From IMG/VR virus record IMGVR_UViG_3300035698_003519, positions 1 through 20,376 of that record: 20,376 bases of DNA; one strand, written 5' to 3'. A program made the position numbers and the translations under genes. Origin of the DNA: a virus. Under the pieces are notes generated by a model. The model saw only the letters and a list, made by a program, of their open reading frames with translations. It was not told the origin of the DNA and made no database searches. Positions 12,514 through 14,119 of the stretch are shown here, piece after piece; positions within the stretch are counted from its first letter, which is position 1; the number at the start of each line of letters is the position of its first letter.

Positions 12514-13299
12514 TTATTCATTAGTATCGCTTCTTGTTATCGCATCGGCAATAGCTTTGAAATATTCGTCTGCATTTTCTCCTATATCCACAAGGGTTTC
12601 TTTACGATCTTTCCAATTCTTACCTTGTCTATTCTTTAACCATATAAACGCTGCGGCTGTGTCTGGTGCAATTTCTTTTTTAACGGTCTTTGTTACAAAC
12701 AATTCTCCTACTTGTATAGGAGATGATTCCATCATTTCTAAATACACTTCAATTTTATTTATTCTCTCGTCGCTATAAAAAGTTTGCTTCTGGTACCATT
12801 CGTGAACATCATTATCTATCTTACTTGAGTTACAAGATTTGCAACACGGAACAACATTCTGTTTTATATATTCCCCACCTTTAGCAAGTGGCTTAAAATG
12901 ATCTTTGGTTATATTGTTTTTTGAACCGCAATAAACACATGAATTATCAAACAACAATAATGCTCTCTGCCAGTCTTGCTCTGTGAGTGTAAATTCTTCG
13001 CCTTCTTTATGTCTTTTCTTTTGTGAAGATGCACCACCTATTCGTTCTTTTGTTATCTCATCAAATGAATATCCGTTAGCTCTTTTATATAAAGCTTTGG
13101 CTACATTAGCATCTGCATCTGACTTGCCCCTTTTTATGGACTGTAGAAATTCTGGATATTCGTGCTTCCAATTATTAAATGTTTTTTCAGATACATCAAA
13201 AAAGTCCGCCATTTCCACATCGGTTAAGCCGAGTAGTGCGAACTTAAAAACTTTCTTATTATATTCTTCCTTATAGAGTGTAGGTCTTCCAACGTCCAT
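12514..13299 (-). CDS. terS: Terminase small subunit with in-frame HNH endonuclease insert
   Basis: 261 aa. Residues 1-87 are a TerS-like DNA-recognition part: GRPTLYKEEYNKKV, HTH around 22-46 (LTDVEMADFFDVSEKTFNNW), then DADANVAKALYKRANGYSFD. Residues ~199-232 resume TerS (ELFVTKTVKKEIAPDTAAAF, IWLKNRQGKNWKDRKE). Between them (~88-198) lies an HNH domain: C121-x2-C124, D133-H134, N148, C153-x2-C156, N157, followed by VHEWYQKQTF. No intein residues are seen (no catalytic Cys/Ser start, no C-terminal His-Asn), so this reads as a nested nuclease domain in one ORF. SD GGGAG is 5-6 nt before the ATG; it is the first gene of the late arm. TerS selects viral DNA; the HNH may nick DNA for packaging or homing. 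Confidence 0.85.
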   Translation of the reverse strand: MDVGRPTLYKEEYNKKVFKFALLGLTDVEMADFFDVSEKTFNNWKHEYPEFLQSIKRGKSDADANVAKALYKRANGYSFDEITKERIGGASSQKKRHKEGEEFTLTEQDWQRALLLFDNSCVYCGSKNNITKDHFKPLAKGGEYIKQNVVPCCKSCNSSKIDNDVHEWYQKQTFYSDERINKIEVYLEMMESSPIQVGELFVTKTVKKEIAPDTAAAFIWLKNRQGKNWKDRKETLVDIGENADEYFKAIADAITRSDTNE

Positions 13300-13429: not shown

Positions 13430-13457
13430 TTTACAAGATTGGGAACAGTATTATAAT
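13430..13457 (+). promoter_or_regulatory. Sigma70-like promoter of the early arm
   Basis: TTTACA (13430-13435), 16-nt spacer, perfect TATAAT (13452-13457). Expected transcription start is near 13464. The upstream region is AT-rich. The only plus-strand promoter of this quality noticed before the replication genes. Confidence 0.65.
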
Positions 13458-13463
13458 ATTAAT

Positions 13464-13584
13464 TATGGTAAGCATAACAAGACAAGATACAAAGATCACA
13501 AATACAAATAAAAACAAAATACCCCCCCGGCAGAGATGTGTGCTTACCACTCACCCAAGCTTGTCTTGGCTCTGTCGGGTTTTT
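13464..13584 (+). ncRNA. Candidate structured leader RNA or sRNA with pseudoknot potential
   Basis: A transcript from the promoter above would start with TATGGTAAGCATAACAAG. Its 5' block TGGTAAGCA (13466-13474) is the exact complement of TGCTTACCA (13541-13549), extendable to 11 pairs with one wobble. The next block CAAGACAAG (13478-13486) is the exact complement of CTTGTCTTG (13560-13568). Both partners lie in the loop of a 10-bp hairpin (13526-13535 with 13570-13579), so pairing would be pseudoknotted. A 5-bp hairpin CCAAG/CTTGG (13555-13569) competes with the second pairing. An A-rich unstructured linker (13487-13521) joins the parts. The hairpin ends in TTTTT. It fits either a ~120-nt sRNA or a switching 5' leader of the gene at 13600. 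No known riboswitch consensus recognised. Confidence 0.5.
13526..13584 (+). terminator. Terminator-like hairpin or attenuator before first early gene
   Basis: Stem CCCGGCAGAG / CTCTGTCGGG (10 pairs, one G-U), 34-nt loop with nested CCAAG/CTTGG hairpin, then TTTTT and AAT. It lies between the early promoter and the SD of the 55-aa gene, so it could terminate or attenuate early transcription. The large loop is atypical for a constitutive terminator. Confidence 0.55.
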
Positions 13585-13599
13585 AATGGGGAGGATATA

Positions 13600-13767
13600 A
13601 TGGATAAAGGCGTAGAGTTCGTAAAGAACCAAATAAGCAAATGTCTAAGCATGAAGACGAATGAAGATAAGCGGGAAGAATTGGCTGATCGTTACAACGT
13701 AGTATTATTTGAAATGGATAGCGATAAATTGGATCAAGAATACCATGATAAGATAGGTATATTATGA
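13600..13767 (+). CDS. 55-aa first early gene product, unknown
   Basis: MDKGVEFVKNQISKCLSMKT..., acidic and helical, no recognised domain. I reject a longer reading from 13465, because that would run through the structured leader and has no SD. At 13600 a near-ideal SD GGGGAGG (13588-13594) sits 5 nt upstream. The stop overlaps the next start as ATGA. As the first gene after the early promoter it is a candidate host-takeover or regulatory peptide, by position only. Confidence 0.75.
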   Translation: MDKGVEFVKNQISKCLSMKTNEDKREELADRYNVVLFEMDSDKLDQEYHDKIGIL

Positions 13768-13892: not shown

Positions 13893-14119
13893 TAAACGCT
13901 GTAGTTAACAATACGTATGACAGTTATTTTTTTGAGTTTCAAATTTTTTGCATTACAGATCGTTGAAAATCAACAACTTACAACAGAATGACGCTTATGA
14001 CAGTTATTATAAAAGAGTATTGAAATATTATATATTGTAGTATAGTTTGGGGCAAATAAGCGTCATAAGCGTCATCAACCCCCGAAAATGGCACAAAAAG
14101 TACAAAAACAAGGTAAAAT
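13893..14119 (+). other. Non-coding repeat-rich region: candidate replication origin or operator
   Basis: No gene here. Tandem 9-mers ATGACGCTT + ATGACAGTT (13988-14005) face, across an AT-rich core of about 50 nt, two head-to-tail AAGCGTCAT copies (14058-14075), the reverse complement of ATGACGCTT. A 13-mer TATGACAGTTATT is repeated at 13916-13928 and 13996-14008. GTTGA-AAA-TCAAC (13962-13974) is a small inverted repeat. GGGG (14049-14052) can pair with CCCC after the last repeat. Directly upstream of the SF3 helicase, this is the expected design of an iteron origin, or an operator of the replication operon. Confidence 0.55.
14020..14046 (+). promoter_or_regulatory. Possible promoter for the helicase gene
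   Basis: TTGAAA (14020-14025), 15-nt spacer, TATAGT (14041-14046), lying between the two oppositely oriented 9-mer doublets. The spacer is short. If real, the doublets would be flanking operator sites. Confidence 0.3.

Follow-up and report, generated by a model that had tools for sequence, protein, structure and literature searches.

Start codon regions complementary to terminator loops in leaderless phage leaders: a candidate translation-gated attenuator

In attenuators of the trp type, amino-acid operons are controlled by combining a leader peptide, competing RNA pairings, and a terminator. In the pyrBI leader (pyrL) of E. coli, translation starts from a Shine-Dalgarno site, and we know of no pairing between its 5′ end and the terminator loop. 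The pyrBI attenuator lies within a 135-bp leader gene, the frame of which spans the intrinsic terminator, and a coupled, closely following ribosome prevents the terminator hairpin from forming (PMC10135430, PMC4824070). Among prophages, transcription of the leaders of Gifsy-1 IsrK and of the P4 CI/seqA/seqC immunity system either terminates, giving a short RNA, or reads through to an mRNA, and RNA–RNA pairing occurs within the leader (PMC4825925). Type I toxin mRNAs such as timP use long-range pairing or a pseudoknot to govern the access of ribosomes to a small frame (PMC11228461). Additionally, in E. coli an AUG at the very 5′ end of an mRNA binds 70S ribosomes and can influence the cistron that follows (PMC4965119).

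The element described here was found in a 20.4-kb viral contig (the window, i.e., the whole stretch of DNA analysed) and in related contigs, and it is filed as a new variant of ribosome-gated attenuation. Like pyrL, it has a leader frame spanning an intrinsic terminator; in contrast to pyrL, which senses UTP via pausing on a U-rich template, its linkers are A-rich and not U-rich in the RNA, its start is leaderless, and its long terminator loop holds the complement of the start region. Unlike trp-type attenuators, it shows no regulatory codon run, no stop before the terminator, and no conservation of the peptide. It also differs from IsrK, which acts in trans on an inactive read-through transcript, and from P4 CI, which is processed from its leader; to our knowledge, PMC4825925 describes neither a leaderless start nor base-pairing between the 5′ end and a terminator loop for these two RNAs. 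Type I toxin mRNAs encode a conserved toxin and are regulated by an antisense RNA, whereas here the terminator is situated inside the frame and the peptide varies, the element peptides sharing no sequence and no conserved small hydrophobic character. As the preliminary description had expected, the window element matched none of the 4227 families of Rfam, even at E = 1, and neither did the elements of its relatives at the gathering score. In the open-licence literature, no account was found of a leaderless frame with its start region paired to the loop of its own terminator, which is weak evidence of novelty.

The window bears structural genes on its minus strand (portal, terminase large subunit, and terminase small subunit) and replication-type genes on its plus strand (D5-like primase/helicase, DNA methylase, and CHC2 primase). 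The element is located on the plus strand in the gap between the two groups, with its promoter facing the plus-strand genes. This sigma70-like promoter (13430–13457) is composed of the −35 box TTTACA (13430–13435), a 16-nt spacer, and the −10 box TATAAT (13452–13457), and the predicted transcription start is at 13464–13465. A 16-nt AT-rich inverted repeat (13404–13419/13449–13464) overlaps the −10 box and is possibly an operator or a chance occurrence in AT-rich DNA. Block A (13466–13476), at the 5′ end of the transcript and overlapping the start codon, is complementary to A′ (13539–13549), which lies within the loop of hairpin C. It is followed by block B (13478–13486), the complement of B′ (13560–13568), and by an A-rich, unstructured linker free of in-frame stop codons (13487–13525). 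The 5′ arm of the terminator-like hairpin C (C5′, 13526–13535) and its 3′ arm (C3′, 13570–13579) were recognised from sequence and folding, the latter forming with the U-run (13580–13584) an intrinsic-terminator-like 3′ end (13570–13584). A Shine-Dalgarno sequence, GGGGAGG (13588–13594), precedes the first downstream gene (13600–13767), which encodes 55 aa without a family match (together 13588–13767).

When the window element was rechecked, the promoter, both 9-mer complementarities, the hairpin, and every coordinate of the preliminary description proved correct, including the local CCAAG/CTTGG hairpin (13555–13569, arms 13555–13559/13565–13569), the loop and 3′ arm of which overlap B′. What it had overlooked is the AUG at 13465, which opens the predicted transcript and begins a leaderless frame (13465–13767) that runs through A′, hairpin C, and the U-run and is in frame with the downstream gene; this frame changes the mechanism to be considered. 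The pairing A:A′ (13466–13476 × 13539–13549) amounts to 11 bp including one G–U, B:B′ (13478–13486 × 13560–13568) to 9 Watson–Crick bp, and hairpin C (13526–13535 × 13570–13579) to 10 bp including one G–U, with a 34-nt loop and a following TTTTT. In 20,000 dinucleotide shuffles of the loop, the score of A was matched anywhere in the first 25 nt by 53, and that of B against the B block by 57, i.e., a chance of ~0.003 for each pairing. The nested minimum-energy fold is unremarkable (z = −1.75), the best nested folds holding A, B, or C reaching −20.9, −17.5, and −24.3 kcal/mol, respectively. The strong evidence for the window observation is its recurrence in related sequence, not the nested fold.

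Relatives were gathered via the large terminase subunit, which gave related viral contigs and one phage-like contig from a bacterial assembly; in one of these, L003, two units of identical design but different letters were found (L003a and L003b). A scan descriptor composed of the promoter, block A, the C5′ arm, A′ in the loop, the C3′ arm, and the U-run, in which the reading frame was not used, gave 14 matches at the score cut-off of at least 60 in 4.0 Mb, versus none in three shuffled copies. Twelve of these were accepted after sequence inspection, the two left out being an inverted repeat in L072 and the antisense strand of the L116 element, and later scans added L260 and L221. The accepted set thus consists of 14 elements on 12 viral or phage-like contigs, namely the window and 13 more: L003a, L003b, L004, L109, L084, L116, L085 and L165 (on one contig), L120, L094, L159, L260, and L221. 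Among the rejected candidates, L072 (minus strand, 8098) contains a 24-bp inverted repeat that mimics the descriptor and is IS-like, and L193 (minus strand, 11145) an inverted repeat of ~33 bp with a stop at codon 9, both of which look like mobile-element ends; L327 has a different 5′ hairpin and a weak A, and L211 is repeat-derived and lacks a U-run.

The GTDB genomes provided one useful phage-like contig, L159; DNA similarity revealed no relative among named phages, the primase query no relative, and exact-stretch motif scans of viral contigs only members already known. Four named phage regions with distant terminases (L398–L401) held no match of family quality. In two samples of 120 contigs, all with consensus leaderless promoters, the element appeared in L260 and also in L221, in the latter case at a different promoter of the contig sampled; it is therefore not a general property of such promoters.

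The common layout is a 5′ block A complementary to A′ within the long loop of the U-tailed hairpin C, with crossing order A–C5′–A′–C3′ in all elements and with an A-to-C5′ spacing of 15–53 nt in the relatives. Most of the 14 elements sit downstream of a sigma70-like promoter with its boxes in the equivalent place; L159 has no recognisable promoter, and that of L221 is weak. A G+C-rich hairpin followed by a U-run, the hallmark of intrinsic terminators, is present, with a poor U-run in L260 and loops far longer than usual.

The A:A′ pairing has a counterpart in all 14 elements, while its letters differ between them and its length ranges from 9 to 21 bp. When each of 13 elements was compared to 500 shuffles, no shuffle reached the observed helix in 11, and three did for L084 and L260. 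Covariation was read from the sequences and not from a covariance model, as the structure is a pseudoknot and the sequences are too diverged to be aligned except within L003a, L004, and L109. In this trio, the A blocks are TGGCTAAGGTAGATC, TGGCTAAGGTAGAA, and TGACTAGGGTAGAC, and the A′ blocks GATCTGCCTTAGTCA, TTCTGCCTTAGCCA, and GTCTGCTCTAGTCA, respectively; L004 and L109 differ by three compensatory double changes in A:A′ (G–C/A–U, A–U/G–C, and A–U/C–G). Likewise, a small hairpin between C5′ and A′ covaries in the trio (TTTC/GAAA, TCCC/GGGA, and TCTC/GAGA). Compensatory change in homologues had been set beforehand as the test of the proposed pairings, and it was borne out for A:A′ in the 13 other elements; B:B′ was seen in the window only, and no counterpart of it was found in the relatives. 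Of the two functions that the preliminary description had offered, the recurrence and compensation of A:A′ support the two-state attenuator, while the Shine-Dalgarno sequence right after the U-run and the frame open through the terminator make the small RNA, which a terminated transcript of ~120 nt could still be, the less likely of the two.

In the window and most relatives, the A of the ATG is situated 6–7 nt past the −10 box, at or next to the expected transcription start. A frame starting in the first ~16 nt was open through A′, C, and the U-run in all 13 elements tested, and the frame of L221, beyond these 13, likewise spans the terminator. Between the ATG and the U-run, stops are absent from this frame in all 13 elements, whereas the other two frames contain 30 and 32. 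Multiplying the shuffle probabilities of the single elements gives ~10^-10, a figure slightly biased by the choice of frame in the late starts L085 and L165 and in L260, for which frame lengths were inspected, and ~10^-8 without these three. The frames of L085 and L165 start from a second ATG just 3′ of A, behind a leader of 13–15 nt, and in L116, L094, and L260, A lies 7–13 nt inside the frame and the AUG itself is unpaired. In nine of 14 copies, the frame either stops no more than ~15 nt from the next start codon or continues into the next gene (the window, where it does so in frame, L003a, L004, L116, L085, L120, L159, L260, and L221). Its end is not near the next start in L003b, L094, and L109, stopping well short of the next gene in the latter two, and the frames of L084 and L165 run on. 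The leader peptides are 34 to 183 aa long, and no shared amino-acid sequence was seen among them outside the closely related L003a, L004, and L109; a function of the peptide was accordingly judged unlikely. Since the frame stays open while the peptides are not conserved, translatability, and not the peptide, seems to be the kept feature, judging from the sequences.

The genomic context varies among copies. In the window, L003a, L004, and L109, the element and the small terminase gene are divergently oriented, and the elements of L003b, L085, and L159 precede replication-type genes as judged by reading the sequence. By the same reading, L116 and L120 each carry their element (upstream of 3786 and of 11640, respectively) immediately after a portal-like gene of the same orientation, so the design also occurs away from early promoters. 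In most copies, a Shine-Dalgarno sequence and a gene start directly follow the U-run. Given this variation, the element looks like a portable control part and not the switch of one operon.

We put at about even chances the reading that the element attenuates transcription in cis at the head of phage operons, with translation as the gate, a mechanism inferred from sequence. The pairing of the start codon region and a frame that remains open across the terminator despite the lack of peptide conservation point to a role of translation, and the Shine-Dalgarno sequence right after the U-run together with the open frame points to a leader acting in cis. A 70S ribosome would initiate at the 5′-terminal AUG before A′ emerges (~75 nt), thereby blocking A:A′; trailing RNA polymerase, it would prevent C from forming, and transcription would continue into the operon. 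Without a ribosome, A would capture A′, the start region would be hidden, and C would form, either as an alternative to A:A′ or jointly with it as a pseudoknot, so that transcription would stop. The terminated RNA would lack an in-frame stop codon, and the buried AUG would bar ribosomes from starting on such a non-stop message. The main weakness of this gate is timing. In E. coli, translation usually fails to suppress a terminator situated in the first ~100 bp of a coding region (PMC4824070), and those of the elements lie at ~90–125 nt, so the ribosome may often come too late.

Folding bears on the order of events and on the opposite polarity of the switch. In RNA ending at A′, the mean pair probability of A:A′ was 0.92–1.00 in 13 of 13 elements, and in the full RNA, C dominated in seven of the 13 (at least 0.9) and A:A′ in five (at least 0.66; L003b, L004, L109, L120, and L159). 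The gap between A′ and C3′ is 0–20 nt, and A:A′ can thus form just before C3′ appears. The model predicts that A:A′ dominates once A′ is made and competes with C once C3′ is made, but nearest-neighbour folding scores either A:A′ or C and not both jointly, and loop lengths alone, by which the point was judged, seem to allow the two together as a pseudoknot. An antiterminator, in which A:A′ is the default and gives read-through while anything that covers A (a ribosome at initiation, a protein, or a small RNA) releases A′ and lets C terminate, agrees with this order of synthesis, with the exclusiveness and similar stability of the two helices in nested folding, and with the five elements where A:A′ wins. 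We nevertheless hold it to be unlikely, as an initiating ribosome would proceed through the open frame and disrupt C itself, the loop lengths leave room for a pseudoknot of A:A′ with C, and the open frame beyond C would be left without a reason.

The released RNA of ~120 nt may itself be the functional molecule: a small, pseudoknotted, stable RNA whose two ends are protected and which would act in trans, for example on other leader copies still being transcribed or on host RNA. The compact unit between promoter and terminator suits this idea, as does the complementarity of A to the A′ of every copy of the same leader, which makes pairing in trans possible; precedents are the P4 CI RNA, which pairs with its own leader (PMC4825925), and IsrK, where a single promoter gives rise to both a short RNA and a read-through one. 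The gene start and Shine-Dalgarno sequence right behind the U-run in most copies, the open frame, the widely different sequences even of two copies in one phage (L003; L085/L165), and the lack of any shared exposed motif seen make it distinctly improbable. That the small protein is the point, with 5′-end folding limiting translation of a leaderless mRNA, would follow the start-region sequestration of type I toxin mRNAs and would account for frames open in 14 of 14 elements; we think this very unlikely given the spread of peptide lengths, the lack of a common amino-acid pattern beyond L003a/L004/L109, and an unsystematic look in which no antisense RNA gene was seen. Long IS-like inverted repeats do occur in other contigs (L072 and L193), but an origin of the whole pattern in DNA-level repeats (operator sites or mobile-element ends) or in chance is hardly credible in view of the crossing order, the fixed place behind the promoter, the U-run, the open frame, and the absence of matches in shuffled sequence.

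Beyond the individual element, we propose tentatively, with somewhat less than even confidence, that these leaders represent an undescribed class of phage RNA in which the 5′-terminal start codon region pairs with the loop of its own operon's terminator, ribosome binding in the first seconds deciding between read-through and a self-silencing, terminated non-stop RNA, with occurrences at early promoters and also after structural genes in a range of uncultured phages. If this holds, several phage lineages would gate operons on immediate ribosome start on the nascent RNA, using the leaderless start codon, an initiation class whose regulatory role is poorly known. The switch would be small and sequence-flexible, a direct readout of transcription–translation coupling, and its rules (A:A′ pairing, a long-loop hairpin, and an open frame) are simple enough for searches and laboratory tests.

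Several other features were noted in these contigs. In the small terminase subunit of the window (12514–13299, minus strand), an HNH endonuclease domain (residues ~90–190) separates the N-terminal terminase part from the C-terminal one and looks like an inserted homing-endonuclease-like domain; the small subunits of L004 and L109 are ~150 aa long. Just upstream of the D5-like primase gene, the segment 13916–14075 contains the direct repeat TATGACAGTTATT at 13916 and 13996 and a 21-nt inverted repeat (13988–14008/14055–14075), and these repeats are possibly a replication origin. Finally, leaderless ATGG starts behind consensus promoters are present in L206 (plus strand, 2764), L263 (plus strand, 1828), and L250 (minus strand, 5865). 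Their start codon regions could base-pair with sequence a short distance downstream, after which come a U-rich run and a Shine-Dalgarno sequence; these are possibly simpler versions of the element design.
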